Source: an uncultured Sulfitobacter sp. (GTDB taxonomy: Bacteria > Pseudomonadota > Alphaproteobacteria > Rhodobacterales > Rhodobacteraceae). Taken from it: a stretch of 64,000 nucleotides of DNA. How positions within the stretch are numbered: position 1 is the stretch's first letter; every line of letters starts with the position of its first letter. Positions 10,903-49,549 of this stretch are shown piece by piece. The position numbers were made by a program, and so were the translations under genes. Where the stretch lies: positions 124,001-188,000 of the forward strand of contig CAJJCJ010000005.1 in NCBI GenBank assembly GCA_905182645.1, given 5' to 3'. The notes below the pieces were generated by a model, which saw only the letters and a program-made list of their open reading frames with translations, was not told the DNA's origin and ran no database searches.

Positions 10903-11777
10903 CGCCTGCTGGGAAAGCGGCAAGCTGTGGTTCACCTGTGCAAAGTGCACGGTGTGAGCCAGCGGTGGGCGTGTGATGTGCTGCAGATTGATCGGTCAAC
11001 GGTGCGATATCTGTCGCGCCGTGGTGATGATGTGGAACTGCGAGATGCAATCAAACGTGTGTCGCGTGAACGCCGTCGGTTTGGTTGCCGCCGCATTCGC
11101 GTGATGATCTGCGCGAGAGGGCTTTGAGGTGAACCACAAGAAAGTGAGGCGCATCTACCGTGAAGAGAAGCTTCAGGTGCGTCGCAGAGGTGGCAGGAAA
11201 GCGTGCTCTGGGCACAAGGAAGCCAATGGTGCTGCCCGATGGCCCGAACCAACGCTGGAGCTTGGATTTCGCATCTGACGCTCTGACAGACGGTCGCAGG
11301 TTTCGCATCTTGGCAGTCGTTGATGACTTTAGTCGTGAGAACTTGGTTCTGGTGGCTGATACATCGCTGTCCGGACACCGCGTTGCACGTGAGCTGGACA
11401 AGGTGATCGCAGAACGAGGCATGCCGAAGACAATAGTTTCAAACAACGGCACCGAGTTCACCAGCATGGCGATCCTCAAATGGGTTCAGGAGAGTGATGT
11501 TGATTGGCACTATATCGCATCCCGCTGCCCGGCAGTGGTTTGCCTGCAAACCATGAGAGGGGGCAAGCCCCAGCAGAACGGCTTCATCGAAAGCTTCAAC
11601 GGCAAGCTTCGAGACGAATGTTTGAATGAAACGTTATTTGGCACATTGCGCGATGCCCACAAAACGCTTGAAGAATGGCAAGAGGATTACAACTGGCGCA
11701 GACCACATTCAGCATTGGGCAACCTGACACCGATGGAATTTTTGCAGAGAAAGGCCATGGACAAGATGGCGGCCTAA
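10896..11777 (+). pseudogene. IS3-family transposase OrfB (DDE integrase core), broken
   Basis: OrfB is recognisable from VTPAGK through [36 protein letters not shown] and the rve domain. Reading it needs three frame changes, near 10915, 11112 and 11200, with the final frame equal to the first. The core shows WSLDFASD (first Asp) and [14 protein letters not shown] (Glu), but the second Asp motif reads SNNGTEF where the family has SDNGTEF, so the catalytic Asp is Asn. A 39-bp in-frame insertion between DWHYIAS and GKPQQNG adds 13 residues. The element cannot make active transposase. Confidence 0.88.
11523..11561 (+). repeat. 39-bp hairpin insertion in IS transposase, copy A
   Basis: Begins CGCTGCCCGG and ends ATGAGAGGG, with a central perfect stem TGGTTTGC-CT-GCAAACCA (11536-11553). 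Removing it restores the family reading [12 protein letters not shown] similar sequence with the same outer arms and a different but equally palindromic core lies in the other, unrelated IS at 49089-49128. Confidence 0.8.
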
Positions 11778-11840
11778 CGCCAAAGATTTAACTCCAAGGA
11801 CACTGCGTAAAGCTGGAGGGAACTTGGGGCACAGGTCAAT

Positions 11841-11889
11841 AGGCACTTAGAATCAAGGTGGTGGCAGTTGCAATCAGAACAGTTTTCAT
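11841..11889 (-). pseudogene. 5' stub of the OmpA-like/lipoprotein gene of the Tad locus
   Basis: An ATG at 11889, 18 bases after the cpaC stop on the same strand, opens MKTVLIATATTLILSA, a signal peptide that runs into the IS at 11840. In roseobacter Tad loci the gene after cpaC encodes an OmpA-family or similar exported protein. Everything beyond the signal peptide is missing. This stub marks the right-hand edge of the lost segment. Confidence 0.65.
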
Positions 11890-11906
11890 CAGTCTGGGCT
11901 TCCTAA

Positions 11907-13334
11907 TTAATCATCAAGTACGTAGCCGTAGGACCCACTAAAGTCCTGACGAGCAACTTCACCGGCGCCACCAGTTTTTGGTGCTTCCTCTGCGGCAACG
12001 CGGCCAAAAAGGAACAAATCACGCTCAGAAGGTGGTTGTACACGGTCCGTTGGCAAGGCCAAAACTTCGCCGCGTGTGGGCGTAACGAGATGTGGGGTCA
12101 CGATAATTACGAGTTCAGTCTGGCTACGCTTATATTCAGCGCTACGGAACAGTGCCCCGAGGATTGGAATATCACCAACCCACGGCAATTGACCGTTAAG
12201 ATCGATAAAATCGTCCTGCAACAGGCCCGCAATTGCGAAGCTTTCGCCGTCACGCATTTCAACGGTTGTTGACGTTTCGCGACGCTTGAACGCGTCGACA
12301 CTAAAGCCGTTGGCTGAAAAGCCGTTCGAGCTGTCCAAAGACGATACTGCAGCGGACAATTCCAGATTAATGATGTCGCCGTCGACGACACGCGGTGTAA
12401 AGTTCAGTTCGACACCAAATGGTTTGTACTCGACGCTGATCGATCCGCCTTCTTGCGCAACTGGGATCGGGTATTCGCCACCGGCTAGGAATTTCGCCTC
12501 TTGTCCAGACAGGGCAGTGAGGTTGGGTTCCGCCAATGTACGCACGACGCCGCGCGATTCCAGCGCTTCTAACAAAATACCAACCTCGACGCCGCCGGCA
12601 TTAAAGCCGAACAAGAATGCACCGTTGTTATCGTTTCTGGACGGCGTTGATCCGGTTAAGGCCGAAGAAATTGCACCCGAATTGTTGAGCGCGTTTGTTC
12701 CGCCGGATAAGCCCAGACTGTTCCCTATCGCAGAACCTTGTAGCGCGATTGAAGATGAAAGCGACTTGCTGACGGACCGCTGCATTTCGGCAAAGCGGAC
12801 CTTGAGCATGACTTGTTGTGTGCCGCCAACGGACATTAAATTAGATACACGGTCAGGAGCGTACCGTTGCGCCAATTCCATTGCGCGATCAAGACGGGCG
12901 ATAGAGCTGACCGTGCCGGATAAAACGATTCCGTCGTTGGCAGTGCGGACTTCAATCGGCTCACCTGGTAAAATCTGCTCAAGGCGTTCTTTAAATTCAG
13001 CGATATCAGGTGTGACGTGGACTTCCACGTTGGTGATAAGCCGCCCGTCACCACCCAAAAGGGTCAATGTTGTCCGACCTGGTTCTTTGCCAAGCACATA
13101 GATGGTGCGATCCGACAGGGATGAAATATCCGCAATGCCGGGGTTGGCGATTGATAATTCAGTGAATGGGGTGTCGCTTTCGACAACCACGGCTCGGTTC
13201 ATCGGCACGTTCAACGCGCTTGACGGCGCACCGCGCATCACCTGTAGCGTTTCAGCCTGCGAAATCGTGGGGGCCGAAATGATGGCCAAAGCAAAGCTGG
13301 CCGCAACCGCTTTGATAAAATTCTTGCATGTCAT
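11907..13334 (-). CDS. cpaC: Tad/Flp pilus secretin CpaC (RcpA)
   Basis: A 475-residue outer-membrane secretin through which the Flp pilus would leave the cell. A signal peptide ends near residue 27 (ISQAE). An N-terminal pilus-secretin domain (LSIANPGIADISSLSDRTIY, GKEPGRTTLTLLGGDG) is followed by a BON-like region and the type II/III secretin domain from about residue 240 (RTLAEPNLTALSGQEAKFLAGGEYPIPVAQ, then ELVIIVTPHLVTP). The gene is complete and in its usual place after cpaB. The ATPase, platform and peptidase partners are missing or broken here, so unless they exist elsewhere the secretin has no pilus to export. Confidence 0.92.
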   Translation of the reverse strand: MTCKNFIKAVAASFALAIISAPTISQAETLQVMRGAPSSALNVPMNRAVVVESDTPFTELSIANPGIADISSLSDRTIYVLGKEPGRTTLTLLGGDGRLITNVEVHVTPDIAEFKERLEQILPGEPIEVRTANDGIVLSGTVSSIARLDRAMELAQRYAPDRVSNLMSVGGTQQVMLKVRFAEMQRSVSKSLSSSIALQGSAIGNSLGLSGGTNALNNSGAISSALTGSTPSRNDNNGAFLFGFNAGGVEVGILLEALESRGVVRTLAEPNLTALSGQEAKFLAGGEYPIPVAQEGGSISVEYKPFGVELNFTPRVVDGDIINLELSAAVSSLDSSNGFSANGFSVDAFKRRETSTTVEMRDGESFAIAGLLQDDFIDLNGQLPWVGDIPILGALFRSAEYKRSQTELVIIVTPHLVTPTRGEVLALPTDRVQPPSERDLFLFGRVAAEEAPKTGGAGEVARQDFSGSYGYVLDD

Positions 13335-13540
13335 CGTGACCTGCCTCTCCGATCGTGCCTCATTTTACGGGTCATTTTACGCCCGCATTTTTCTAACAGT
13401 GTCTCGAAACGATATTTATTGCAAGATTCAATACGTTGTCGGGCAATCCTAATCTGGATAAGTTGGAACAGTGTGTCTGCGATGGAAAAAGGCACGCACA
13501 TGAAGTGACGCGCGTGCCCTTAGAAATTCAGTTTTTTGAT

Positions 13541-14398
13541 CTAGTCGCTGCAGGGGACAGGGATCTGCAGGACATCAGCGCCGCGTCGCGTTTTGATTGT
13601 GCATACCCGATCGACTGGGGCGACCTCGACTTGAGCAATAACCGGATCCTCGGCAAGTCCGAGCAAAGCCCGTTGATCGACCAAGACGTTTTCGCTCAAG
13701 CTGTCATCATCGTCACCGACAAGTGACAGGGTCAAAGCGCCGCTTGACTGTGCTTGCGCCAAGATGCCGACGTCTTGTGGGGACACCTGAACAGTCACGG
13801 TGCGGGCTATGCTGACACCGCTTCGGTCGCCGTCAGCGGTTTGATCAATTGCGATGATTTCAACGCCGGACTTGATGAGTTGGGTGAACGACTGACGGTT
13901 GCCATTGCCAGCCAACCCTGTCCAATACACATCAACACGATGACTTGGGCGCAGGAAGCCGGACACACCACTGGCGACGTCGACCTTAATTGTAAAGGCG
14001 CGCATCCCACGGCTTAGGCGGCTTGTGATGCCCGTGTCGCGGCCCGGCTGGGTGACTTTAATCGCCAAAATGGGTTCATTGATTTCCATCTGACGCAATG
14101 CGATGCGCGGCACATCTTCTCCGTCAGGGAAAATCTCTTCTAGGGTTGCAAAAGAGCCCTCGGGGACGAAAGCGATTGCGTAATCAATCAACGTCACGTC
14201 TCCTGGCAGGATTGGTTCTCCATAGGTGATTGTCCGTCTGGGCGCATAAATTTGGGTGGTTGGAACCGTTTGCGCCGTCTTAGCGCGTTCTTGCGCCAAA
14301 GCAGTTTCCTGCTGGCTTACAAACCCCTGGACCATATAGACAGCAAAGCCCGCAAGGCCCATGCCAACTAGCAATACTAATGCAAACACACCGCGCAT
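13541..14398 (-). CDS. cpaB: Flp pilus assembly protein CpaB (RcpC)
   Basis: A 285-residue protein with one N-terminal membrane or signal segment (GVFALVLLVGMGLAGFAVYMV), an SAF-like domain (RRTITYGEPILPGDVTLIDY) and the RcpC/CpaB C-terminal domain (GMRAFTIKVDVASGVSGFL, then HRVDVYWTG). CpaB proteins are periplasmic partners of the Tad secretin. The C-terminus ends CTIKTRRGADVLQIPVPC, typical of roseobacter RcpC. It lies upstream of cpaC with a 206-base gap, longer than usual, and downstream of the Flp-like pilin genes. No lesion is seen. Confidence 0.9.
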   Translation of the reverse strand: MRGVFALVLLVGMGLAGFAVYMVQGFVSQQETALAQERAKTAQTVPTTQIYAPRRTITYGEPILPGDVTLIDYAIAFVPEGSFATLEEIFPDGEDVPRIALRQMEINEPILAIKVTQPGRDTGITSRLSRGMRAFTIKVDVASGVSGFLRPSHRVDVYWTGLAGNGNRQSFTQLIKSGVEIIAIDQTADGDRSGVSIARTVTVQVSPQDVGILAQAQSSGALTLSLVGDDDDSLSENVLVDQRALLGLAEDPVIAQVEVAPVDRVCTIKTRRGADVLQIPVPCSD

Positions 14399-14472
14399 TT
14401 CCGTACCTCAATTCAATTTTCAGTGCGGCCACTGCGAGGGGCCGCTGGATTATGATCGCTTGTGTGCGACCG

Positions 14473-14652
14473 TTATTCGGTGACGCAGGACCCAACCTTT
14501 GCCTGAAGTTCATTGCCTGCAGCAATGGCGTCCTGACTTATAGAAATACCGAAGCCGGTTGCCAGGATGACGATCGACGCGGTGAGGGCGTCCCAATCGA
14601 TAGAGATAGCGTCAAACTGGTCGGTGAGAAAGTTTCCAAATTGGTCTCGCAT
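14473..14652 (-). CDS. Flp-like pilin paralogue
   Basis: A 59-residue peptide: an N-terminal polar part with FLTDQFDAISIDWDALTA, then one hydrophobic helix (SIVILATGFGISI) and a polar tail. The layout and the D-W-x-x-L-T-A motif match the Flp pilin family and the neighbouring flp gene. The acidic residue before the helix differs from the classical G/E prepilin site, so processing is uncertain. GGAAG stands 8 bases before the ATG. It lies between flp and cpaB on the same strand. Confidence 0.65.
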   Translation of the reverse strand: MRDQFGNFLTDQFDAISIDWDALTASIVILATGFGISISQDAIAAGNELQAKVGSCVTE

Positions 14653-14770
14653 TTGTCTTCCGATACATACTAAGTTCAATGGGAATAACGAAAATAATAG
14701 CAACACAATGCGGCAGGTTGGTGGCCGTTTGGCGCCAAATGCGTGAAATTGAAGCAGGCATCGCAACGTC

Positions 14771-14801
14771 AAAAGGTCGCCTCACTAGAAATGGGGCGGC
14801 C
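14771..14801 (-). terminator. Terminator after flp
   Basis: Read on the minus strand, GGCCGCCCC pairs with GAGGCGACC (with wobbles) around a 9-base loop and is followed by TTTT. It lies about 25 bases beyond the flp stop. Confidence 0.6.
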
Positions 14802-14826
14802 TGATCCAATAATCTAAGAAGATTGA

Positions 14827-15006
14827 TTATGATCCTGATTGGGCAATCAAGTCAGCTTCAATCTTGTCTGCAAGTGTTGTCGCGCCAGTTTTCACTGATG
14901 CACCAACAACCGCACCAAGCAGAACGATTGCAGCGGTCAAGACAACCTAGTCAACTGTTACTGCGCCGGATTCGTCATTTTTGAAATTTTTGATAAAGTT
15001 AAGCAT
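14827..15006 (-). pseudogene. flp: flp pilin gene with an internal amber codon
   Basis: The frame reads MLNFIKNFKNDESGAVTVD, stop, then VVLTAAIVLLGAVVGASVK and a polar tail to a normal TAA. Relatives have Trp in the D-W-V-V-L-T motif, and the neighbouring paralogue also has DW. The codon here is TAG (14947-14949), one G-to-A change from TGG. The rest is intact, with a strong GGAGGG ribosome site and good codon use, so the mutation looks recent. Amber suppression is conceivable but nothing suggests it. Confidence 0.85.
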
Positions 15007-15360
15007 TGTAGTCCCTCCTCAGGGTTTGGTTGGATTTCATGTCAAACCTTGTCGGATCTCATTGAACCGGCCTCGTATTGGTTCAATCCCCGTCTTGGAT
15101 GAAACTGTTTTGCCATTCGAATGGGGCAGGAATTTGTCAGTAATCGCGTGATTTTGGAAAGCCTTCGATAAAATACATTAAATTTTATAATGGTTTGATT
15201 TTACTTAATTAATAGCATGAATGTTAATGTTAAAACGCATTAAACTGGTCACGAAATGTGTCCAATCAGCCCCACAACATCGTCAATACTTCCAATTTGA
15301 TCGTAACGGGCCACCGAAAATGTAATAATAATCCAAATGAAAAGATGAGGCGGCGATAAC
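15007..15360. promoter_or_regulatory. Divergent intergenic region between flp and the lytic transglycosylase
   Basis: 354 AT-rich bases that must hold the promoters for the minus-strand pilin and the plus-strand transglycosylase. An inverted repeat ATTGAACC-N11-GGTTCAAT lies at 15061-15087, upstream of flp, and could be an operator or a 5'-UTR hairpin. The stretch 15165-15245 is especially A/T-rich (TTAATTAATAG, GTTAATGTTAAAAC). I see no gene in it. Confidence 0.5.
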
Positions 15361-16191
15361 GTGAAGCTATCAGGCTATCTATATGGGGCGATTGCCGCTT
15401 TGGCTGTGTCCGCGCCGTCGGTTTCTGCGGAGTCGTCACGTCTTCAGGCCGATTTTTCATTTAAGCGGGTGACTGTGCCCAGCCAGAACACGGCGACCCC
15501 GCGTATCACTGTCCAAATCGATCCTGATACAGCGGTGCCTGTCGCGGCAGAACCAGTAGATGCTGGGTTGCCTGACGCGCCCACTCCCCCAAAGGTAACG
15601 GGATTGGAATGGTTTTGGGTGGCTGTATCGCCAGATTTGTCAGACAGTCGACCCGGGCGTTTGGAGCTTGCGGTGCGCGCTATTGATAATGCGCCGGATG
15701 GTAGGGCCGTTCCGAGGCCACGATTGCAGTCTTTGCAAGAGATCGCAAACATGCACGGGCTCAACATTCTGCGTGCGACGGTTGGCACCGATGTATCGCC
15801 TGCTTTGGTCCTTGCGCTGATTTCAATCGAAAGCGTGGGTAAGATTGAGACCGAAAGTCATGCCGGCGCGCAGGGTCTTATGCAGCTTATGCCAGCCACT
15901 GCCGCGCGGTTCGGCGTTACAGATCGTTTGGACCCAGCCGAGAATATTAAAGCAGGTGTTGCCTATCTTGCGTGGTTGATGAACCATTTTGACAATGATC
16001 CGATCCTTGTCCTTGCTGGGTATAATGCTGGCGAAGGATCTGTGCGTGATAATGCAGGGGTGCCGCCGTTTGCTGAGACCCGCGCATATGTGCCAAAGGT
16101 TTTGGCGGCGTGGACAGTTGCAAGGGGGCTTTGTCAGACGCCGCCAGAGTTAATGACGGATGGATGCGTGTTTCACAACAACGGCGCCTAA
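15361..16191 (+). CDS. Lytic transglycosylase, SLT domain
   Basis: A 276-residue exported muramidase-like enzyme starting at GTG. A signal peptide covers about residues 1-24 (ending SAESS). The SLT fold begins near residue 140: ALISIESVGKIETESHAGAQG has the catalytic Glu (IES), followed by GLMQLMPATAARFGV and AGYNAGEGSVRDNAGVPP. Enzymes of this type cut glycan strands to let envelope machines through the wall. Its position next to the Tad locus makes a role in pilus passage plausible but unproven. The gene is complete. Confidence 0.88.
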   Translation: MKLSGYLYGAIAALAVSAPSVSAESSRLQADFSFKRVTVPSQNTATPRITVQIDPDTAVPVAAEPVDAGLPDAPTPPKVTGLEWFWVAVSPDLSDSRPGRLELAVRAIDNAPDGRAVPRPRLQSLQEIANMHGLNILRATVGTDVSPALVLALISIESVGKIETESHAGAQGLMQLMPATAARFGVTDRLDPAENIKAGVAYLAWLMNHFDNDPILVLAGYNAGEGSVRDNAGVPPFAETRAYVPKVLAAWTVARGLCQTPPELMTDGCVFHNNGA

Positions 16192-16207
16192 GAGGGTCTA
16201 TATATAG

Positions 16208-16831
16208 CTAGACGATTGTAGCCTCTGTCGCGTCGCGCAATTGCTGCTCTGACACGCCTTCCGCTGTTTCCACGATCCGCAAACCACCTTCAACGACGTC
16301 CAAGACGCCAAGGTTGGTGATGATCCGGTGTACGACAGATTGACCTGTCAGCGGCAGCGTACAAGATTTCAGCACTTTACTGTCGCCATGTTTGTTGGTG
16401 TGATCCATCACGACGACCACGCGGCCGACGCCTGCAACAAGATCCATCGCACCGCCCATGCCTTTGACCAGCTTACCGGGGATCATCCAATTGGCCAGAT
16501 CGCCGTTTTCAGCGACTTCCATCGCGCCAAGGATCGCCATTGCGATTTTGCCGCCTCGGATCATGCCAAAGGATTGCGCGCTGTCAAAGTACGATGTTTG
16601 GGGCAGTTCAGTGATGGTCTGCTTGCCCGCGTTAATAAGGTCAGCGTCTTCATCGCCCGCAATAGGGAAGGGGCCCATGCCCAGCATGCCGTTTTCCGAT
16701 TGCAGGGTAACCTCGATGCCTTCGGGGATGTAGTTGCTGACCAGCGTCGGGATACCGATGCCAAGGTTCACATACCAGCCGTCTTGCAGTTCTCGTGCAG
16801 CGCGTGCTGCCATTTGATTGCGATCCCACAT
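16208..16831 (-). CDS. 3-oxoacid CoA-transferase subunit B
   Basis: A 207-residue beta subunit of a family I CoA-transferase (AtoA/ScoB type). It has NLGIGIPTLVSNYIPEG, the catalytic-Glu motif SENGMLGMGP and GGAMDLVAGVGRVVVVMDHT. With subunit A, encoded directly upstream with a 1-base gap, it would move CoA between succinyl-CoA and acetoacetate or a similar acid, usually in ketone-body or PHB turnover. The exact acid cannot be read from sequence. Confidence 0.92.
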   Translation of the reverse strand: MWDRNQMAARAARELQDGWYVNLGIGIPTLVSNYIPEGIEVTLQSENGMLGMGPFPIAGDEDADLINAGKQTITELPQTSYFDSAQSFGMIRGGKIAMAILGAMEVAENGDLANWMIPGKLVKGMGGAMDLVAGVGRVVVVMDHTNKHGDSKVLKSCTLPLTGQSVVHRIITNLGVLDVVEGGLRIVETAEGVSEQQLRDATEATIV

Positions 16832-16832
16832 A

Positions 16833-17528
16833 TCAGGCGCTCCTTACTGTGCGTTGTTCGATGCGTTTCTCGTGATCGCCCTGAATAATACGGTGCACAT
16901 AGATGCCGGGCAGGTGGATGTGATCGGGGTCCATTGAGCCGGTTTCAACAATCTCTTCTACTTCTACCACGCAGATTTTACCGCACATCGCAGCTGGCGG
17001 GTTAAAGTTGCGCGCGGTTTTGCGGAACATCAGGTTGCCTGTAGCGTCTGCTTTCCACGCTTTCACAATCGCAAGGTCAGCCACGATGCCTTCTTCTAGG
17101 ATGTAGGTTTGGCCGTTGAAGTCTTTGTGTTCTTTGCCGTCGGCAATCACGGTGCCGACGCCTGTTTTGGTGTAGAACCCCGGAATGCCACAGCCGCCCG
17201 CGCGCATGCGTTCGGCCAATGTGCCTTGTGGGTTGAATTCTAGCTCAAGCTCGCCGGACAAATACTGGCGCATGAATTCGGCATTTTCACCAACATAAGA
17301 GCTGATCATCTTTTTGACCTGCTTGGTTTGCAGTAAAATGCCAATCCCGAAATCATCGACGCCCGCGTTGTTTGACGCAAATGTCAGGTCCTTGGTACCA
17401 GCGGTTTTGATCGCTTCAAGCAGCAGTTCGGGGATACCGCATAGGCCAAAGCCGCCGGATGCGATAAACATGCCGTCGGTAAGCAGCCCGTTGAGGGCGG
17501 CTGCGGCATTGGGATATATCTTTTTCAT
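16833..17528 (-). CDS. 3-oxoacid CoA-transferase subunit A
   Basis: A 231-residue alpha subunit with the CoA-binding GGFGLCGIPELLLEAI near residue 21 and the family segments SNNAGVDDFGIGILL and GCGIPGFYTKTGVGT. It forms a heterodimer or heterotetramer with the product of the next gene. GGAGG-type bases precede the ATG (ACTCCATG on the plus strand reads AGGACTCCATG). The pair is flanked upstream by a 34-bp perfect palindrome that separates it from topA. Confidence 0.92.
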   Translation of the reverse strand: MKKIYPNAAAALNGLLTDGMFIASGGFGLCGIPELLLEAIKTAGTKDLTFASNNAGVDDFGIGILLQTKQVKKMISSYVGENAEFMRQYLSGELELEFNPQGTLAERMRAGGCGIPGFYTKTGVGTVIADGKEHKDFNGQTYILEEGIVADLAIVKAWKADATGNLMFRKTARNFNPPAAMCGKICVVEVEEIVETGSMDPDHIHLPGIYVHRIIQGDHEKRIEQRTVRSA

Positions 17529-17597
17529 GGAGTCCTCCAGTTGTTACGCGGATTGTTGCCGCGCTGATGACCCAGAGTCAAACACAATGCTGCGATG

Positions 17598-17631
17598 CGG
17601 CGGATATTTTGCAACCGGTTGCAAAATATCC
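17598..17631. terminator. 34-bp perfect palindrome between topA and the CoA-transferase genes
   Basis: GCGGATATTTTGCAACC is followed at once by its exact reverse complement. As RNA it folds into a stem of about 15 pairs with a tiny loop 8 bases after the topA stop. There is no T-run on either strand, so it may be an unusual terminator, a protein-binding palindrome or a small mobile repeat. Confidence 0.6.
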
Positions 17632-17639
17632 GCGAAAGA

Positions 17640-20267: not shown

Positions 20268-20396
20268 ATGAAACTTTCAAAATCGGGTGGGGTGGAAAGG
20301 GATTTTCTACATGTGGTTGGTCGCAAAGGAATGTCAATGCGCCCAAATGTCAAAGGGGAATGTTGACTGATCCCACATCATAAGCCTGCGATTGGC

Positions 20397-22235: not shown

Positions 22236-22274
22236 CCTCTGCCATCATTATTACATCACTACGTCAAAATAAGA

Positions 22275-37872: not shown

Positions 37873-37935
37873 GGTGATCCCCTGCTAGTTAAGAAAGCGG
37901 CACTATACCCGCGCGAACAGGCCGCGCAATACTGT

Positions 37936-38735: not shown

Positions 38736-38739
38736 GCTG

Positions 38740-38964
38740 ATGCATACGAAATTTGATCTTGCTGCGATGGCCGCAAAGACGGTGTACGTCAAACCGATTG
38801 AGGTGGCTGATTTGTCAGATGAGCTGCGCGCACAGGCAGGCGATTTGGAACAGTTGTTTGCCGTGCATAATGCCAAGGGAGAGCAGCTGGCGCTGGTAGC
38901 CACCAATGAAATGGCGGTTCATTTGGCGTTGGAAAATGACATGCAGCCAGTCGCGCTGCATTAA
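38740..38964 (+). CDS. DUF1150 family protein
   Basis: A 74-residue protein containing TVYVKPIEVADLSDELRAQ and VATNEMAVHLALENDMQPVA, the core of the alphaproteobacterial DUF1150 family. Function unknown; its steady linkage to hsp20 suggests a stress-related role (inference). It starts 4 bases after the hsp20 stop with AAGGATAAG as ribosome site. Confidence 0.85.
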   Translation: MHTKFDLAAMAAKTVYVKPIEVADLSDELRAQAGDLEQLFAVHNAKGEQLALVATNEMAVHLALENDMQPVALH

Positions 38965-38977
38965 GCGTTAACGGAGC

Positions 38978-39001
38978 GCGTAGGATGGGTTTTAACCCAT
39001 C
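38978..39001 (+). repeat. GTAGGATGGGT palindromic repeat, copy 5
   Basis: GCGTAGGATGGGTTTTAACCCATC, identical to copies 1 and 3, located 13 bases after the DUF1150 stop, in front of a hairpin (GCGCCCGCTG...CAGCGGGCGC). Confidence 0.85.
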
Positions 39002-39009
39002 GCAAACAA

Positions 39010-39041
39010 AAGCGCCCGCTGAAGTGATGCAGCGGGCGCTT
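39010..39041. terminator. Bidirectional terminator between DUF1150 and sat-cysC
   Basis: AGCGCCCGCTG pairs with CAGCGGGCGCT around AAGTGATG, an 11-pair perfect stem followed by TTGACGTTTT. It serves convergent transcripts. Confidence 0.8.
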
Positions 39042-39059
39042 TGACGTTTTGTATCTAGC

Positions 39060-41135: not shown

Positions 41136-41153
41136 TGAGGCGACTCGTTAATT

Positions 41154-41167
41154 GTTCACGAGTGAAC
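41154..41167. promoter_or_regulatory. Palindrome GTTCAC-GA-GTGAAC upstream of the MarR-Sat-CysC frame
   Basis: A perfect 14-base palindrome 19 bases before the start codon at 41135, placed where a repressor would block initiation. Its TTGTTCA half recurs 31 bases away within the next inverted repeat. Confidence 0.6.
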
Positions 41168-41178
41168 CTATGTCGCAA

Positions 41179-41207
41179 AAAGTTTGTTCAGCCATAGAAC
41201 AAACTTT
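41179..41207. promoter_or_regulatory. Inverted repeat AAAGTTTGTTC-N7-GAACAAACTTT
   Basis: Perfect 11-base arms around a 7-base spacer, upstream of the MarR-Sat-CysC frame. It is the right size for a dimeric winged-helix regulator and shares TTGTTCA with the palindrome at 41154, at three helical turns. Probably an operator; the regulator could be the fused MarR domain itself. Confidence 0.65.
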
Positions 41208-41287
41208 CCGATCGGCGAATTACACGCAAGTGTTTGCGTGTTGCTGTCAGAATGCAACGCCCGTCTGATGCTGCATTGCGCAACATA

Positions 41288-42229
41288 TCAGTCTTGTTCG
41301 GCAAGGAATTTTTCTGCGTCCAGTGCTGCCATGCAGCCCATGCCTGCCGATGTGACCGCTTGCCGGTAAATGTGGTCCGTCAGATCGCCTGCTGCGAACA
41401 CGCCAGGAATGGCAGTGCGCGTTGACCCTGCTTCAACGTTTACATAGCCACCGCTGTGCAATTCAAGCTGATCTTTGACCAATTCGGATGCTGGCGCGTG
41501 GCCGATCGCAATGAACAGGCCTTTGACCGGCAGATCGGTGATTTCGTCGGTTTTTGTGTGTTTGACTTTGATTCCTTCAACCCCTAGCGGGCTGTCGGTG
41601 CCGTAGACTTCTTCTAATTCGTGGAACCACAGGGTTTCGATCTTGGGGTTCTTGAGCAGTCGATGTTCAAGGATCTTTTCGCAGCGCAATTCGTCGCGGC
41701 GGTGGATCAGCGTGACTTTGGACGCGAAGTTGGTCAGGAACAGTGCTTCTTCAACAGCGGTGTTTCCGCCGCCGATGACCGCGATTTCCATGCCACGGTA
41801 AAAGAACCCGTCGCAGGTCGCACAGGCCGATACGCCGAAGCCTTTGAATTTCTCTTCTGTTGGCAGCCCAAGCCATTTTGCCCGCGCACCTGTGCACATG
41901 ATCACAGCGTCTGCCTTGTAGACGGTGCCGCTGTCGGACTGCGCTGTGAATGGCCGCTTGGACAGGTCGAGCGATGTGATGATGTCGCCGACAATGTCGC
42001 AGCCCATGGCGCGTGCGTGTGCTTCCATTCGGATCATCAGGTCGGGACCTTGGACTTCGGTGTCGCCGGGCCAGTTTTCGACTTCGGTGGTCGTGGTCAA
42101 CTGCCCGCCCGGTTCAATGCCTTGCACAAGCAGGGGTTCCAGCATGGCGCGCGCAGCATAGACGCCAGCGGAGTAACCTGCGGGGCCGGAGCCGATGATC
42201 AGAACTTTGGTGTGGCGAGTGACAGACAT
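41288..42229 (-). CDS. trxB: Thioredoxin reductase
   Basis: A 313-residue FAD/NADPH enzyme that reduces thioredoxin. The FAD motif is [17 protein letters not shown], the redox-active CATCDGF lies near residue 139, and the NADPH motif [12 protein letters not shown] follows. The C-terminus has [21 protein letters not shown]. The ATG at 42229 has AAAGGAA upstream; the longer open frame to 42577 runs through the divergent promoter region and is not credible. Confidence 0.97.
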
Positions 42230-42332
42230 GACGGCGCGTTCCTTTGATGGTGTTTGCACCGATATAGCCGTGGCGCGGGCGTGTTGGAACCCCGCATGAC
42301 TGCGCTGTGATCTTTGTTCTCGTATCATTTTG

Positions 42333-42360
42333 TTGCGCAAGTGTGAAACATTATTGCGCA
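42333..42360. promoter_or_regulatory. Tandem TTGCGCA motifs before the Lrp-type regulator
   Basis: TTGCGCA occurs at 42333-42339 and 42354-42360, two helical turns apart, within the divergent trxB/lrp space. Lrp/AsnC proteins bind phased sites, so this is a candidate autoregulatory site for the downstream gene. Based on pattern only. Confidence 0.4.
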
Positions 42361-42409
42361 TAAGCTTCGTCGGGCGTAGTCTTTGCAAAACCAACGAGGG
42401 GATGCTGAC

Positions 42410-42910
42410 ATGCCGGGCGCAAAGCTTGATGAGATTGATCGTATGATTCTGGCTGAGTTGCAGGCAGATGGCCGTATGACCAACGTAGAGCTGGCGCGTC
42501 GGGTTGGGATTTCTGCGCCACCTTGTTTGCGCCGCGTGCGTACACTCGAAGAGCAGGGCTACATCCGCGGTTATCACGCCGAAGTGGATGCCCGCGAGCT
42601 AGGGTTCGAAGTACAGGTGTTTGCGATGGTTGGGCTGGTCAGTCAGGCCGAGGTCGATTTAACTGCGTTTGAAGCCAAGTGTTTGCAATGGCCGCTGGTG
42701 CGCGAATGCCATATGTTGAACGGTGAGGTCGATTTTGTTCTGAAGTGCGTCGCTCCAGACTTGCGCACGTTCCAGCGGTTCCTGACCGAAGATCTGACGA
42801 GCGCCGACAATGTCGCAAGCGTCAAGACGTCACTGGTTATCCGTGGTGCAAAAGATGAACCGGGTGTGCCGTTTGACGTGCTTGAGGCCCGTTTGGCGCA
42901 GAACGCTTAG
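42410..42910 (+). CDS. Lrp/AsnC-family transcriptional regulator
   Basis: A 166-residue regulator. The N-terminal helix-turn-helix is [20 protein letters not shown] with [20 protein letters not shown], and the C-terminal RAM effector domain contains [19 protein letters not shown]. The ATG at 42410 has GAGGGG upstream. It is divergent from trxB, an arrangement kept in many roseobacters. The effector is likely an amino acid but unknown. Confidence 0.93.
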
Positions 42911-43676
42911 GCTGCCATTACCAAATCAATATCAGCCTTGTTCAGGCGTGGTGCGGTCAGCGGTCCAAAGTCTGTCAAATAGTGCATATGTGGAAACATG
43001 GCCATAAGGTGTGGCAGCAAATCTGGCCCAAGCCCAATAGCGTGCGCCGGACCAGGATGGAGCGTTTCCACGTCGATCCCGTTGACGTTGACGCAGGCGT
43101 GTTCTGCAAACCCAAGCTGGTAGCAATGAACGGGTGCGATGGGTCGCAGTTCGATCAATTGATCGCCATCGATAAAGTTGCGCACGGGGATCAGTGCCGC
43201 GTCGGCACCGGTTAGTATGCGTGTCGCAGGTGATCGGTGCAGCATCCGCGCTGCTGGCCCAAGTACCAGATCAGGGGCAGGGCGCCCAAAACCAAGTGCA
43301 TCAGCCGTGATCCGCGTCATCGTCCCGATTTCAGGCCGTGGGTCCCGTGCCAAAGCAGCGTCTGATAGCCGTGATCAGTTAGCACATTGTCACTGGGTAA
43401 CAGATCTTCAACGGCCATCATGCCAGATTGGGTCCGCAAGATAGCGCCACGTCCGAAGGCGGCAAAAGTGTCTTCAAACACGGGCATAGCTGGCGCGATT
43501 TTGGAGAAGTCTTCTATGGTTTTGGAGGGTGTCAGGTGGGCAACTTCATACCTGCGCATTAGGTGCTTTGCGCGGAGTGGTTGCCCACTTGGACTAGCAG
43601 CGCCCCGACCCATATGGGTCGGAGACGTATAGGGTGCCACCGCGAGGCCTGCGGTGGTGTTTGGGGTCTTATTCAT
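42907..43676 (-). pseudogene. Hint (Hedgehog/intein) domain protein, frameshifted
   Basis: The first half reads from MNKTPNTTAGL (43676) through FEDTFAAFGRGAILRTQSGM, AVEDLLPSDNVLTDHGYQTLLWHGT and a stop after KSGR. The second half, in another frame, reads ARDPRPEIGTMTRITADAL, then LHRSPATRILTGADAALIPV and VNVNGIDVETLHPGPA. Together they make one roseobacter-type Hint_2 protein of about 255 residues, with the frame lost near 43330-43350 (GGCACGGGACCC). The catalytic-site Cys or Ser of true inteins is not evident. The role of these proteins is unknown. Confidence 0.75.
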
Positions 43677-43912
43677 GCGTCGCACCACTTTGGTTTGTCA
43701 CATCATCTGTCGGCCCCACCGACAACATCTGAGGAGATGATTGCTGTTGAGACTGAATGTGGCCCAAAGGTGCCCGCACTGTCAAAGAAATTTGATTTTG
43801 AGATGATTTGGCGCATCAATCGTATGCGGATGCCCAAGATTGTTCATACTACGCGGTTTTATCCGCCACATTTGCCATGGGCTTTGTGCGAATCGCGGTC
43901 TTAGGACAGCAA

Positions 43913-43944
43913 AAAACCGTGTGGAAGGAGGACCACACGGTTTT
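43913..43944. terminator. Strong bidirectional terminator
   Basis: AAAACCGTGTGG-N8-CCACACGGTTTT, a perfect 12-pair stem flanked by A and T runs. It lies downstream of the 61-residue minus-strand gene. Confidence 0.85.
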
Positions 43945-43987
43945 CAGGCTCTTGGGAAGCGGGCCACGAGGGCCAATGTCGTAAATT

Positions 43988-44173
43988 TTATGCAGTGACT
44001 ACCATTGTCATGAAGGACGGCATCGGTGGCAGAGATACTTTAACCTGCTCGGACTGTTCCAGACGACGTGAAATCATGGCTTGGCGGCGCAAGCCACGTT
44101 CCCATGGCATTTTCGTTTCGCACTTGTTTGCTTCTTCGATTGTGTTGTCGATCCAACGTTTAGATGGTCCCAT
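43988..44173 (-). CDS. Small conserved roseobacter protein, 61 residues
   Basis: [20 protein letters not shown], then [19 protein letters not shown] and a hydrophobic tail. It is basic with one Cys and no obvious domain. It is supported as a gene by a good ribosome site (GAGGAG) 9 bases before the ATG, a strong terminator 44 bases after the stop, and my recollection of similar short proteins (MPWERGxRR) in related genomes. Function unknown. Confidence 0.7.
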
Positions 44174-44428
44174 GACTGCTCTCCTCAGAGTTAATATATG
44201 TGCCGCGTTTGTTTGTTGGCGTTGCATACATCTTGATGGTTCTGCGGGGCAGGAATGGGGCGATCCAAAAGGTTTTTGTAAAATTTGAAGAAAAATTTCG
44301 CCTCATTTTGTTAACCGGTGGCACCCCAATGAAATAAGGGATTTGCGCTGTAGCCGAAAACAATCAGCAAGGTTTTGAGTGGATTGTTTCGCAGATTGGG
44401 GCAATGGCCTGCCCCATTTCTGCCTAGA

Positions 44429-45184
44429 TCAAAGCCGGATTGCTGCAATGAGCCGCCCGTAGTCGGCCTGTTTTTCATGCACGCTGCGCCGGTAGGAATA
44501 GAATCGCGCCGGATCGCTGTAGGTGCAGTGCCGCGTCCATGCTGCGTCTTTGATCCCCGCCGCGCGCAAGCGTCCGAGACCGAAGGCTGGCAGGTCAAAT
44601 TGCATCCGGTCGTCGGTGCCCTGTGCAAAGTAGCGCGCGTTCAGTGGGTCCTCGTCGATGAAACGTTCTGCGAACTCTGGTCCGACCTCATAGGCCCGTT
44701 GGCTAATGGATGGTCCGATGACTGCCACGATGTTGTTGCGCGTGGCCCCGAGGCCGACCATCGCATCAACGGTGTTGCCCAACACGCCGGTGAGCGCCCC
44801 TTGCCAACCCGCATGTGCCGCCCCGATGACACCTGCGTCCATGTCAGCGAAAAGCACTGGTTGGCAATCAGCGGTCAACACCGAAAGGGTGATCCCGCGC
44901 GTGGCAGTCACAATGCCGTCTGCTTTGGGTTTGTCGGGTTTGGCTGCAGTGATAGTGATCACGTCTGCTGAATGGATTTGGTGCACGCCGACCATGGTGT
45001 CGGCGGTTCCGCCCATGGCAGATGCCACGCGCGACCTGTTGATTGCCACGATGTCATGCTGATCACTGCTGCCAAACCCACAGTTCAGCCCCGAGAACAC
45101 CCCAGAAGACGCCCCGCCTTGCCGTCCAAAGAACCCGTGGTTGACCCCATCAAGCAGGTCGTCGGTGATGATATCAAGCGTCAT
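44429..45184 (-). CDS. pgeF: Peptidoglycan editing factor PgeF (YfiH, multicopper-oxidase-like)
   Basis: A 251-residue DUF152 protein. GFFGRQGGASSGVFSGLNCG starts the fold, and the metal ligands sit in VHQIHSADV, TADCQPVLFAD (Cys) and GAAHAGWQGALTGV (His). The family hydrolyses mis-incorporated residues from peptidoglycan precursors and was formerly called polyphenol oxidase. Its start overlaps the end of the methyltransferase gene by 4 bases, placing it third in the lgt operon. Confidence 0.93.
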   Translation of the reverse strand: MTLDIITDDLLDGVNHGFFGRQGGASSGVFSGLNCGFGSSDQHDIVAINRSRVASAMGGTADTMVGVHQIHSADVITITAAKPDKPKADGIVTATRGITLSVLTADCQPVLFADMDAGVIGAAHAGWQGALTGVLGNTVDAMVGLGATRNNIVAVIGPSISQRAYEVGPEFAERFIDEDPLNARYFAQGTDDRMQFDLPAFGLGRLRAAGIKDAAWTRHCTYSDPARFYSYRRSVHEKQADYGRLIAAIRL

Positions 45185-46233
45185 GGGTTCAATCCTGCAG
45201 GGGGCGCGCCGCCATTTGGGTATAAGCCGATTACTTTGAACAGGTTCCCCATCGCATCTGGATGGGTCAAGCGTTTATGTGCCTCAATGTGGCTTGTCAG
45301 GGCGTCGCCGGTCAAGTCTTTGGCCAAGGTTTGCGCCCGCGCGGTGATGCCAAGTCGTTCGAGGAAAATGCCTTGGGGTGTCACGCGAGTGTATGTTGTG
45401 GCTGCGGCAGCTATGGCTGCAAAATCAACGTGTGCGGTCAGGTCTGCTTGTCCCGGGTTTGCAAATGGGTCGGTTGTTTCGTGGCCTGCGAGTGCTTGAA
45501 GCGTGTCCCCTTGTGACTGCCAATCGCCGTAGTCGATGATTAATGCCGCCCCGCCGTGGGTGTCGATGAGTTTTGCAATATGGCTGATGATTGCGGGTAG
45601 CGCAGGGCAAACTTCGATCACATCGCCGTCTTTGGTGTCGGTTAGTCTGTGATCAAGTGCGTTCAGTGGTGCGGCTTGGCTGAGACCGAGCGTCAGCTTG
45701 CCGTCGGTCACCCCGATCATATGTTCGCGCCAGCCGCCCGCATCGCGCGTGAATTGCCGGATTGGTAGTGCGTCAAAGAATTCGTTTGCGATCGCAAATA
45801 GTGGAGCGTCGGGCAGGGTATTTGCATCGTCATGCCATATTGCGTGCGGGACAAGTTCGGCTTGTTTGGCGCGCAGGCTGGGGGATGTTTCGATAAAGTG
45901 AACGGTCAGGGCAGCGTGAAAGCCTGCCACGCCGCGTGTTGCGCGCAATGCATCGGCCATGAGCGTGCCGCGTCCGGGTCCAAGTTCGGCGAGGCTGATT
46001 TGTGTGGGTGATCCTTGATCCAGCCATGCTTGCGTTAGCGACAGCCCGATGAGTTCGCCGAACATCTGGCTGATCTCGGGGGCGGTGGTAAAATCGCCCA
46101 GCACGCCAAACGGATCACGTGTGGTGTAGTAGCCGTGCACCGGATGCATCAGGCAATCGCCGATATAGTCGGCCAATGTGATTGGCCCCGTTGCGGCAAT
46201 GCGCGCCGCCATCAGGTCGCCAAGTGCTGTCAT
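45181..46233 (-). CDS. COG1565 SAM-dependent methyltransferase (NDUFAF7-like)
   Basis: A 350-residue protein. YIGDCLMHPVHGYYTTRDPF, DFTTAPEISQMFGELIGLSL and the SAM motif LAELGPGRGTLMADALRA match the bacterial relatives of mitochondrial NDUFAF7, which methylates an arginine of complex I. The bacterial target is not established. Its start overlaps the lgt stop by 4 bases, and its stop overlaps pgeF. Start taken at 46233; the further upstream frame lies in lgt. Confidence 0.92.
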   Translation of the reverse strand: MTALGDLMAARIAATGPITLADYIGDCLMHPVHGYYTTRDPFGVLGDFTTAPEISQMFGELIGLSLTQAWLDQGSPTQISLAELGPGRGTLMADALRATRGVAGFHAALTVHFIETSPSLRAKQAELVPHAIWHDDANTLPDAPLFAIANEFFDALPIRQFTRDAGGWREHMIGVTDGKLTLGLSQAAPLNALDHRLTDTKDGDVIEVCPALPAIISHIAKLIDTHGGAALIIDYGDWQSQGDTLQALAGHETTDPFANPGQADLTAHVDFAAIAAAATTYTRVTPQGIFLERLGITARAQTLAKDLTGDALTSHIEAHKRLTHPDAMGNLFKVIGLYPNGGAPPAGLNP

Positions 46234-47108
46234 CGCCGCGCGGCCCACCAGACAACTCCTAGCCCTACGATGATCATCGGTAGCGTCAACGTTTGCCCCA
46301 TGGTGAGGCCCCAATCACCCATTTGAAACGCGAGCCCAAGCGGATTGCCTGCGGTTACAAATTGCGCGTCCGGTTGGCGTACGAATTCGATCAGGAACCG
46401 CGCAATGCCGTAGCCTGCAAAGAATACGCCGGACAGCAGCCAAGTTTTCTGGAGCCCAGAAAACCGGAATGCCAGTAGGAATAGCAGTGTGCCGAGCAGC
46501 AGCCCTTCGAGGCCTGCTTCATACAATTGTGATGGGTGGCGCGCACACAGGCCAGCCGCGGTGGCACAGCTTTGCGCGGCTTCGGTCGGGAAAATCACGC
46601 CCCACGGCACGTTGGTTTCGCGACCCCATAGTTCGGCGTTAATGAAATTTGCGATCCGTACGAGGAAGATTGCGACTGGCGCTGCCAGTGCGATCCCGTC
46701 GGCCAAAGCGGGCAGGGCGACCTTGTGCCGCAGGCTGAACAGCCAGACGGCGACAACGACCCCGAGGAACCCGCCGTGGAACGACATGCCGCCGGTCCAG
46801 ATCATCGGTATCTCAATCGGGTTCGATAGATAGTAGGCCGGTTTATAGAATATGACATACCCGAGCCGTCCGCCTGCAATAACGCCGACGACGATGTATG
46901 TGGTGAGGTCTTCGAGCTTGGCCACGGCCATTGGGGACCCGTCACGCCACAGTTGCGGTCGTGTTATCGCGGCTTTTAACATTTGCCAGCCGAGCATGAT
47001 GCCAACGATATAGGCCATGGCGTACCAGCGCAGTGCGATGTGAAAACCAAACAGGTCAAAGCTGAAAATTTCGGGCGAGATATTGGGGAATGTGAGTGCT
47101 GCAATCAT
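46230..47108 (-). CDS. lgt: Prolipoprotein diacylglyceryl transferase
   Basis: A 292-residue inner-membrane enzyme transferring diacylglycerol to the lipobox Cys of prolipoproteins. About seven helices are visible. The Lgt signature RIANFINAELWGRETNVPWG is complete, along with MSFHGGFLGVVVAVW and HPSQLYEAGLEGLLL. First gene of the lgt-methyltransferase-pgeF operon. The ATG at 47108 is divergent from ubiK. Confidence 0.96.
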   Translation of the reverse strand: MIAALTFPNISPEIFSFDLFGFHIALRWYAMAYIVGIMLGWQMLKAAITRPQLWRDGSPMAVAKLEDLTTYIVVGVIAGGRLGYVIFYKPAYYLSNPIEIPMIWTGGMSFHGGFLGVVVAVWLFSLRHKVALPALADGIALAAPVAIFLVRIANFINAELWGRETNVPWGVIFPTEAAQSCATAAGLCARHPSQLYEAGLEGLLLGTLLFLLAFRFSGLQKTWLLSGVFFAGYGIARFLIEFVRQPDAQFVTAGNPLGLAFQMGDWGLTMGQTLTLPMIIVGLGVVWWAARR

Positions 47109-47202
47109 AGGTGTTACTTTTGACACCACGGACGGGAAGTCAACCGCTTGCGCGACGGGCACCAGCACCCCATATAAGCATCAGATAGAATTGGAGACTG
47201 CG

Positions 47203-47445
47203 ATGCAGACCAGAAATAAAATCCTCGATGATTTTTCACAACTGATGACAAATGCGATGGGTGTGGCCCAAGGTGCCAAAGACGAAGCGGGCACTGCAGT
47301 AAGCAGCATGATGGACCGTTGGTTGGCGGACCGTGATTTCGTGACACGCGAAGAATTTGATGCGGTGCGCGCGATGGCGCAAAAAGCCCGCGAAGAAAAT
47401 GCGAGCCTTTCGGCCCGTCTTGAGGCGCTTGAGGCCAAAAAATAG
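47203..47445 (+). CDS. ubiK: Ubiquinone biosynthesis accessory factor UbiK
   Basis: An 80-residue helical protein of the YqiC/BMFP family: MQTRNKILDDFSQLMTNAMG, then RWLADRDFVTREEFDAVRAM and a C-terminal trimeric coiled coil (ARLEALEAKK). UbiK assists the soluble Ubi complex in making ubiquinone. It is divergent from lgt, as in many alphaproteobacteria. GGAGA stands 9 bases before the ATG. Confidence 0.85.
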   Translation: MQTRNKILDDFSQLMTNAMGVAQGAKDEAGTAVSSMMDRWLADRDFVTREEFDAVRAMAQKAREENASLSARLEALEAKK

Positions 47446-47622
47446 TCTAACCGGATGATGCGGTGCCGCGTGCTCGTTTTAAGTGCAAGTGCTGCCGCAC
47501 CTCCGGTCGCGTACCCCATGATAAATAATGCGGCATGCCACGGACCGACGCAAAGGCCCCGGGATCAGCGCATATGATGCGGCCAGCGAACTTAATAGCC
47601 ATGAAACGGAATGTGTATATTT

Positions 47623-47916
47623 CTACTTTATTTTGTCCGAAAGCTCGTAAACTGAACGTTGCGTACCGTCACAGTGATTGAGGTACCCTGCTTCCACGAC
47701 GTCTTTCAGTGCTCTGAAAAAACTGCTGCGGGACACTCCTTCAAGTAGGGTGCGCCGACGTAATTCGTCAGTTTCAAAATTCCTGTCCTTCTCCGACAAG
47801 ATTGTCGCGGCGTAGACGATGTCTTTTTGCACTGCGCCCAGATCGCCGATCCCAAGATCGCGTTCCATTCCGAGAAGTAGCTCTTTTAGGTGCGCTATCG
47901 AACCAAAGTTTGCCAT
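47623..47916 (-). CDS. Small winged-helix-like protein
   Basis: A 97-residue protein, ANFGSIAHLKELLLGMERDL then LGAVQKDIVYAATILSEKD and LLEGVSRSSFFRALKDVVEA, which looks like a helix-turn-helix followed by a wing (GYLNHCDGTQRSVYELSD). It is probably a DNA-binding regulator; no named family is certain. Upstream in-frame starts at 47934 and 47970 exist. The surrounding DNA is less GC-rich than neighbouring genes, and an IS lies 210 bases upstream. Confidence 0.6.
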   Translation of the reverse strand: MANFGSIAHLKELLLGMERDLGIGDLGAVQKDIVYAATILSEKDRNFETDELRRRTLLEGVSRSSFFRALKDVVEAGYLNHCDGTQRSVYELSDKIK

Positions 47917-48208
47917 CTGAATCTTTCTGCACATCAGCCGATCCGTCGCGGCCAGCTGGTGAAAAAACAATAATGATTGTCAATAAGCACATTAAGTCCC
48001 AAGTTGAGACTATGTGAGTGTTTAAGTTATTTCATTTGTCTCCTTCTGCGCCTCGTGAGCTAACGCTCTCGGGGCGTAATTTTTGAGAAATACCAAAGTT
48101 TTATGAACACCTGCAAGGTTCGCAATGTCTGACGTCAGCGCCTATGGGTCAAATACGTTATTTGATAAGAGAGTGTTCTTGGCTCATCGTAACCACTGAG
48201 AGTGGAAG

Positions 48209-48578
48209 ATGAGACAGACAACTGGAACACGTAAAAGCCCTGGCGAGAAGATCGTCAAAGATATCAAACGGGCCACCCGCAAACATTATTCATCAGAAGA
48301 GAAGATCCGCATCGTGCTGGACGGCCTGCCGGGGAAGATAGCATTGCTGAGCTGTGCCGCCGTGAAGGCATCTCCCAGGGCATCTATTACAAATGGTCCA
48401 AGGACTTCATGGAAGTTGGCAAACGACGCCTTGCTGGCGATACGCGCGTGCGGCCAACACTGACGAGGTTAAGGATCTGCGCCGTGAAGCCTGCGACCTG
48501 AAGGAAGTTGTGGCGGAGCAAACGCTCGAACTCCGACTGCTCAAAAAAAGCATGTTCGACGGTGGGGGCCCCGAATGA
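48209..48578 (+). pseudogene. IS3-family OrfA remnant
   Basis: Starts intact (RKSPGEKIVKDIKRATRKHY, SSEEKIRIVLDGL), then loses a base near 48333. The HTH (ELCRREGISQGIYYKWSKDF) continues in a second frame to AGDT, and a second lost base near 48445 moves to the frame of RAANTDEVKDLRREACDLKE and EQTLELRLLKKS. With both losses repaired it would be a normal OrfA of about 122 residues. Confidence 0.85.
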
Positions 48579-49549
48579 GATACCCCGCATCTGAGAAGCT
48601 GGAGATCATCCGTGGTCGAAGAAGGCCATCTGTCAGCGCGTCTCACGTTGCCAAACTGGCATCCCTACGAACCACATTCTACGTGGTATCGATCGGTATC
48701 TTGCAGCGTGGCGAAGCTGGCCTGCAGGATCAATCTCCCAAGCCAAAACACGTCTGGAACCGCATTCCTGATAGGTCCGGCGCAAGGTGGTCAACTGGCT
48801 TGAAGGAGACAGAGTTGCACGCGAGAGTTGCGGTGACATTCACGACACAGAAAGCTGCTTTGTATCAGAGGCTTCGACGTATCGGATCTTGAAGGCGTAT
48901 GATCTGATTACCAGCCCAGCTTTCATTGTCATCAAGGCCGCTAGCGAGTTCAAAGACAAGACCACGGCCATCAACCAGCTTTGGCAAACCGACTTCACCT
49001 ACCTAAAGATCATCGGCTGGGGCTGGTTCTATCTCAGCACAATCTTTGACGATTACAGCCGCTACATCATCTCGTGGAAACTCTGCACCGCTGCCCGGTA
49101 GGGTATTGCGTAGCAATGCACGAGAGGGGAACATGAGAACCCAAGATGTGACGGACACGCTGGACTTGGCCTTGGCGGCGTCGGGATGTGACCAAGTGCA
49201 TGTCGTCCACAAGCCTCGCCTTCTTAGTGATAACGGCTCAAGCTACGTCTCGGGGGAGTTGGTGGAATGGTTGAAAGGCAAAGGTATGAAGCACTCTCGA
49301 GGTGCGCCGTATCATCCCCAAACACAGGGCAAAATCGAACGATGGCATCAGACCTTGAAGAACCGCATCTTGCTAGAAAATTACTTCCTGCCGGGTGACC
49401 TTGAAGCTCAAATCGAAGCCTTCGTGGATCACTACAACCACCAGCGCTACCACGAAAGCCTGAACAACGTCACACCGTCTGACGTATACTTCGGCCGCGA
49501 CAAAGCTATTCTACAACAACGAGAAAGGAGCAAACGAAAGACACTCTAA
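48575..49549 (+). pseudogene. IS3-family OrfB transposase remnant
   Basis: Pieces in several frames: RYPASEKLEIIR, then LQRGEAGLQDQSPKPKHVWN, ASTYRILKAYDLITSPAF and the DDE core. The catalytic residues are all readable (WQTDFTYLK, LLSDNGSSYV, TQGKIERWHQ). At least three indels break the first half, and the 40-bp insertion at 49089-49128 adds a TAG and shifts the frame between SWKLCT and MRTQDVTDTL. After it the frame is open to 49549. Confidence 0.85.
49089..49128 (+). repeat. 40-bp hairpin insertion in IS transposase, copy B
   Basis: Starts CGCTGCCCGG and ends CACGAGAGGG; the core GTATTGC-GTA-GCAATGC (49103-49119) is an inverted repeat with one G-T wobble. Removing exactly 40 bases restores CTNMRTQDVT, the expected transposase sequence. 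The outer arms match copy A at 11523 almost exactly while the stem sequence differs. Confidence 0.8.

Follow-up and report, generated by a model that had tools for sequence, protein, structure and literature searches.

Two Interrupted Transposase Genes

What are the two short hairpin sequences that interrupt different transposase genes in this 64,000-nucleotide stretch of DNA (the window), and how did they come to be there? The original prediction described two similar stretches of 39 and 40 bp, and both are present where it placed them: a search of the window for CGCTGCCCGG-N15..30-GAGAGGG returns these two places and no others, and none of 100 dinucleotide shuffles contains the pattern. Both are read on the forward strand. 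Copy 1 (positions 11523–11561, 39 bp; 39.9 bits with covariance model R1 and 67.6 bits with R2) consists of a conserved left arm, CGCTGCCCGGCA (11523–11534), which together with the following base folds alone as CTGC-CCG-GCAG; a variable hairpin, GTGGTTTGC/CT/GCAAACCAT (11535–11554); and a conserved right arm, GAGAGGG (11555–11561). Copy 2 (49089–49128, 40 bp; 47.5 bits with R1) has the left arm CGCTGCCCGGTA (49089–49100), the hairpin GGGTATTGC/GTA/GCAATG CAC with one mismatch near its base (49101–49121), and the same right arm (49122–49128). The shared GAGAGGG was part of the prediction and stands; on the left, the conserved arm proved to be 12 nt long and its commoner second base to be A (CACTGCCCGGCA), so that the predicted CGCTG is a variant.

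Copy 1 lies in an IS3-type transposase gene (host insertion sequence [IS] 10600–11860, forward strand) and copy 2 in a different, IS3/IS481-like gene (host IS 48190–49600, forward strand); these limits are those of our searches and need not be the ends of the ISs. Profile comparison identifies both host genes as DDE/rve transposases nearest the IS3 family; as the queries were gene fragments, the NCBIfam scores stay under the curated cut-offs. The prediction assigned the hosts to two different IS3 groups; the second is about as near to IS481. At the gathering score, Rfam has no match within the window. Elsewhere in the window, a 125-nt direct repeat (94% identity) occupies positions 7658–7782 and 9017–9141, 1359 bases apart.

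Empty Sites and Element Borders

Removal of the two stretches was predicted to restore the transposases, and relatives of each host IS, some of them in the same genome, do lack exactly 39 or 40 bp. For the first host IS, five of 11 alignment rows (L157 and L162–L165, all from the same genome) show a single 39-bp gap, and the other six carry the element. For the second, a single 40-bp gap is found in 14 of 29 rows, 13 times at the same place and once shifted four bases further on; one empty row (L202) comes from the same genome as the window. Three of the 29 rows contain an element, in one of them (L192, genome G184) as a diverged version in the same position, and the alignment is ragged in 12. 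The borders are consistent with one another, defining a unit C(A/G)CTG…GAGAGGG with zero duplicated host bases. Because relatives of both host ISs exist without the stretch, and because the borders agree, both window copies are precise insertions; the contrary expectation, that uninterrupted relatives would naturally contain these stretches, is contradicted by the same alignments.

In the genome from which the window derives, IS copies with one and the same element (C3 and C5) lie at more than one place. Thirty Pseudosulfitobacter plasmid records are 100% identical over the full length of the interrupted stretch, so all of them have the element; on one of these plasmids both IS3 copies carry the element. 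A Phaeobacter site is covered by a single record. By eye, the gene of the first host IS is frameshifted once more at about 11095–11130, before the element begins, and this copy therefore looks decayed anyway.

A Covarying Hairpin between Constant Arms

Taken over all copies, the element comprises a constant arm C(A/G)CTGCCCGGCA, a variable, covarying hairpin, and GAGAGGG. The 12-nt left arm is almost invariant and can fold on its own, the right arm has 7 nt, and the two are not inverse repeats of each other. The hairpin is 9–10 bp long, has the foot GGCA in nearly all aligned copies, and contains a bulged T in the 41-nt class; in copy 2 the bulged T is absent and the stem base is partly decayed, GGG facing CAC. 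Among 134 site representatives, lengths run from 26 (truncated) to 45 nt, with 41 nt the commonest (79), and we would put the size of the family at about 33–45 bp. Since most elements have 41 nt, most lengths break the reading frame: 111 of the 129 elements of at least 36 nt are not a multiple of three long.

The hairpins are diverse (70 different ones in 111 site–genome entries), and it had been predicted for the two window copies that the stem is kept by concerted change of its two strands. A comparison of two seed sets bears this out. Eight of nine base pairs show two-sided changes in each set, and the covariation scores, 0.570 and 0.645, compare with shuffle means of 0.145 and 0.190, none of 500 shuffles reaching the observed score; sliding one strand of the hairpin against its partner collapses the pairing. 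Paired cells amount to 98.5% and 100%, a share that is partly built in, as the seeds were picked by hand for their stems, which affects the two-sided changes less. In overall folding energy the elements do not stand out (z −0.2 to −1.7).

Distribution

Two covariance models were built, one on 22 seeds 41 nt long and the other on 12 seeds 39 nt long. At E values up to 0.001, R1 finds matches in 135 of the 394 genomes searched from the bacterial family, with as many as 16 matches per genome. A pattern search that ignores the stem matches 66 of the 394, against 22 genomes for the reversed pattern (hand count); chance matches without a stem are included in the 66, and by eye a stem is present wherever a listed match has the complete arm GCTGCCCGGCAG. 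The same pattern finds four places in the window's own genome, which has at least six element sites. Further copies thus greatly exceed chance, as the original prediction had required of a real element. A control consisting of 67 loci in which both arms occur by chance sets the ceiling: 17 match R1 at E values of 0.05 or less, and the highest-scoring of them reaches 27.9 bits (E 0.004). Both window copies score above this ceiling, and 15 of the 212 matches used below lie at or under it, that is, at chance level by score.

Elsewhere in the class the family is found only rarely. Seven of 289 genomes in a class-wide sample match, and three of the seven belong to the same bacterial family; in one of the other four, G586, two copies lie by eye within genes of IS3 and IS481 type, and one of these shares the P^G site (the caret marks the insertion point) of window copy 1. 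The commonest element type occurs on 97 plasmid records, 90 of them in ten tallied genera, all of the Roseobacter group; the type found in the window is on 12 plasmid records. Phage records yielded no match to the commonest type. Five viral contigs contain an element, and in three it adjoins IS genes by eye.

Residence in Insertion Sequences

The 212 model matches combine the best 150 of the 153 from one run with 62 from a second, and some places are included more than once because loci overlap. After matches with less than 12 nt of flank were dropped, clustering by flank reduced them to 134 distinct sites, of which 115 are in ISs (105 with a flanking frame that recurs at other sites and ten assigned by eye), 14 are elsewhere, and five are undecided. 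The host ISs are of the IS3, IS5, IS21, IS66, IS91, IS256, IS481, and IS630 types. The recurring flank families are nearly all transposases, by Pfam or by eye; one, number 7, could be given no name, and three of ten family representatives have no Pfam match in the submitted frame. When flanks were picked by codon usage, Pfam returned chiefly transposase domains, in a minority of the 131 pieces per side because many pieces were short or wrong, along with lone ordinary families. In the flanks of chance-match loci 98 families were found, and none of the 25 that were listed is a transposase; this control covers 67 of 96 loci and 131 of 186 pieces, many from unrelated bacteria, with two loci that turned out to be true copies left out of the 96.

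The description of a very small mobile or RNA-structured element that targets transposase genes thus holds as to size, mobility, exact borders, and residence; a role for RNA is another matter. Relative to the transposase, 44 elements are sense, 48 antisense, and 12 undecided (n = 104), and given this even orientation nothing observed requires action at the RNA level.

Several individual sites deserve mention. In L270 and L272 (genome G075), five elements occupy one IS3 copy, and a near-identical (99%) copy exists elsewhere. The non-IS site in L209 may sit within a peptidase gene (by eye). In L241 (1501–1541), L277 (1023–1063), and L305 (1472–1512), the element lies directly at the start of a gene that by eye resembles RelE/HigB and is followed by an HTH gene; this arrangement, among the few non-IS sites, is also seen in a viral contig.

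Target and Repeated Insertion

The target can be read from 123 of the 134 sites, 11 having been dropped for length or ragged ends. The preferred target is Y-C-R-T-C^G, with Y-C-R-T-C in the host before the element and G after it: position −1 is C at 100 sites, −2 is T at 73, −3 is A or G at 94, and +1 is G at 96. The motif is not palindromic, and the reaction therefore distinguishes strands. At position 300 of IS5, G follows the junction in five of six filled copies and in 19 of 59 unfilled ones, with a p value of 0.023 that is a guide only, since IS5 copies are related and not all independent.

Repeated use of one site is seen in IS5. Elements were lifted from these ISs with a looser detector, which misses 20 of the 212 model matches and, on control loci totalling 122 kb, gives seven hits. 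Low identity led to the removal of three of the 73 near-complete IS5 matches; 18 of the remaining 70 carry elements, clustered at a handful of recurrent sites. Site −62 holds three unrelated hairpin types (GGGCATCAC, GTCGAAACG, and GTTGATTGC) in four genomes. In genome G134 an identical element occupies this site in three IS5 paralogues that differ at 35–55% of silent sites, and in G250 the same element is at position 300 in two paralogues with a 50% silent-site difference (five of the 70 IS5 rows were dropped from this comparison for length). In one G134 pair (L311/L340) the mismatch nearest the junction is 6 bp away, which leaves little room for gene conversion; identical elements at one site of such diverged paralogues therefore point to repeated, site-directed insertion. 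In IS3, three copies of the element (window copy 1, L086, and L256) occupy site IA(S/P)^GKP; two of them have similar hairpins, and the third has a different type. Site QII^G is filled by three hairpin types.

These observations bear on the proposal that one or a few old insertions were spread solely by transposition of the host IS, recombination, and gene conversion. ISs with the same element do occur at several places, as noted above for the window's genome and for two IS3 copies on one plasmid, and hairpin cores are not more alike within genomes than between them: among cores at different sites, 7 of 156 within-genome pairs are identical, as are 191 of 5928 between-genome pairs (a value this high arose in 40 of 301 permutations). 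We saw no recent within-genome burst of one stem type in this permutation test of core identity, a result that also fits spread on host ISs. Nevertheless, the 134 distinct sites are spread over several IS families and both orientations, one site holds unrelated stems, and paralogues that have diverged deeply, with mismatches close to the junction, carry identical elements. All this is hard to derive in this way, and we regard so simple a history as quite improbable.

Fate of the Host Gene

Could the insert be silent in the protein, either spliced out or bypassed by the ribosome, as the mobile bypassing elements of yeast mitochondria are? Removal of the element gives one continuous transposase match in many IS5 copies, and element-bearing ISs are found in more than one copy, as such a mechanism would allow. 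Antisense copies are, however, as common as sense copies, and an insert without effect on the protein should also be common outside ISs, where only 14 of the 134 sites lie. Stop codons are at least as frequent in IS5 copies with the element (nine of 18) as in those without it (nine of 52), which argues against bypass; merging four rows of one genome gives six of 15 (p 0.083), with at least one empty place counted twice. On the evidence of orientation and stops we reject bypass and splicing, which retain only a very slight probability. The inserts look inactivating or at best neutral for the host gene, and the element-bearing ISs that are present in more than one copy were presumably moved in trans.

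Where one IS holds two elements, chimaeric junctions are found from which the segment between them is gone (L269 against L253 and L268; L251 against L212; L208 against L252). The elements may promote such deletions, although plain homologous recombination could suffice. The same junctions might be taken as a sign that the element is a folded, attC-like recombination site of a tyrosine or serine recombinase, inserted site by site, with copies that recombine mutually; the absence of a target duplication and the conservation of structure above sequence would agree with this. The inverse R′/R″ boxes of integron attC sites have no counterpart in an element whose arms are not inverse repeats, though, and the loci that were read showed no evident cassette array. 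Together with the possible explanation of the deletions by homologous recombination, this makes a recombination site a rather unlikely identity for the element.

Possible Mechanism and Relation to Known Systems

We think it probable that the insertions represent one family of minimal, nonautonomous, structure-dependent mobile DNA elements, resident in ISs and moved by an enzyme acting in trans. Such an enzyme, whose existence we infer, would recognize the arms together with the folded hairpin of one strand, cut both ends, and attach the element on the 3′ side of a short target, as HUH-type enzymes do in single-strand transposition. A copy that landed in an IS would be tolerated, multiplied, and spread, whereas copies elsewhere would tend to be lost; the element would persist because ISs are dispensable, multicopy, and mobile. 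The arms are equally well kept in IS and non-IS copies (p 0.44), so that an age-related loss of the latter is not visible. We consider it unlikely that a dedicated system seeds the hairpin into transposase genes, either as an IS-homing hyperparasite with its own single-strand integrase or as a host function that inactivates ISs at conserved CRTC^G sites.

Two candidates for the enzyme were tried as a general mover and rejected, since neither is general among 24 carriers. Y1_Tnp (PF01797, RAYT-type) was found in six carriers and undetected in 18, figures in which draft genomes may hide some genes, and in one of 20 genomes without a model match; Y2_Tnp (PF04986) was found in eight carriers, undetected in 16, and present in two of the 20 noncarriers. 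Among the loci examined (left arms without right ones, and four stem-plus-right-arm types without left ones) there was no autonomous relative; what the search yielded was the near-palindromic left arm read on the reverse strand, copies in decay, and matches apparently due to chance.

Several known systems resemble the element in part. MITEs are likewise short and nonautonomous, but they have terminal inverted repeats and target duplications, and the element has neither. The ends of IS200/IS605 elements and their small derivatives combine a hairpin with a conserved flank and a short 5′ target, and their single-strand transposition, like the insertions described here, leaves no target duplication and uses a fixed short target on the 5′ side; the present element differs in that a single main hairpin is contained in about 40 bp and a Y1 enzyme is usually undetected. 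The nearest of the known kinds are the REP and RPE palindromes. REP sequences (GTAG-tagged, RAYT-associated) are multicopy stem-loops of 20–45 bp with variable stems, some of them within genes. The CGTC class, including the Rickettsia repeats RPE-4 and RPE-6, is alphaproteobacterial, has intragenic members, and is described without a dedicated or known transposase in the available part of PMC3733652.

Might the element then be a branch of the GTAG or CGTC super-families of REP/RPE palindromes, moved by a RAYT-type Y1 transposase? Size, variable stem-loops, and intragenic occurrence invite the comparison, as does the fact that the host bases before the element are CRTC. This CRTC belongs to the host target, however; it is 12 nt away from the hairpin foot and is present in empty sites. 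At the foot itself there is GGCA in nearly all aligned copies, with neither a GTAG nor a CGTC tag. According to the available part of PMC3733652, CGTC (or TGTC or CCTC) stands next to the stem in CGTC repeats and is accompanied by a CCA-like tail; the element has no such tail, and most of its lengths break the reading frame. REP sequences of the GTAG type are mostly extragenic and go with a RAYT gene, whereas this element has long constant arms of 12 and 7 nt, lies mostly inside ISs, and is carried for the most part by genomes in which Y1_Tnp was undetected. Membership of these super-families is accordingly doubtful; the element works like a REP, being small, folded, and apparently moved in trans, but by the features compared it is not one.

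A full-text literature search, which largely excluded subscription journals, found no description of the element, in keeping with the predicted lack of a named match; the words "palindrom" and "hairpin" are absent from the main texts, as available, of two papers on IS-rich relatives (PMC3646047 and PMC13386836). If our reading of the insertions as a mobile element is right, an element whose core is maintained through its structure, not its sequence, and which inserts at an exact short target without duplication has spread through a major marine bacterial group, and ISs serve as a refuge for smaller parasites. A search for the missing enzyme could then start from a defined substrate and target, and the element would bear on how CGTC-type palindromes might move without a transposase. 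To our knowledge, it would be among the smallest mobile elements described. Interrupted transposases of this kind also mislead annotation.

Two variant forms were noticed in the course of the searches. A variant starting CGTAGCCC (L211, 974–1013, and L210, 951–991) lies by eye between ordinary genes and may be a separate intergenic branch. A 34-nt form with a GGCGGC/GCCGCC stem is found in L049 (7540–7573), L141 (4632–4665), and L013 (1500–1533); the copies in L049 and L141 are from Leisingera and, by eye, also lie between genes.
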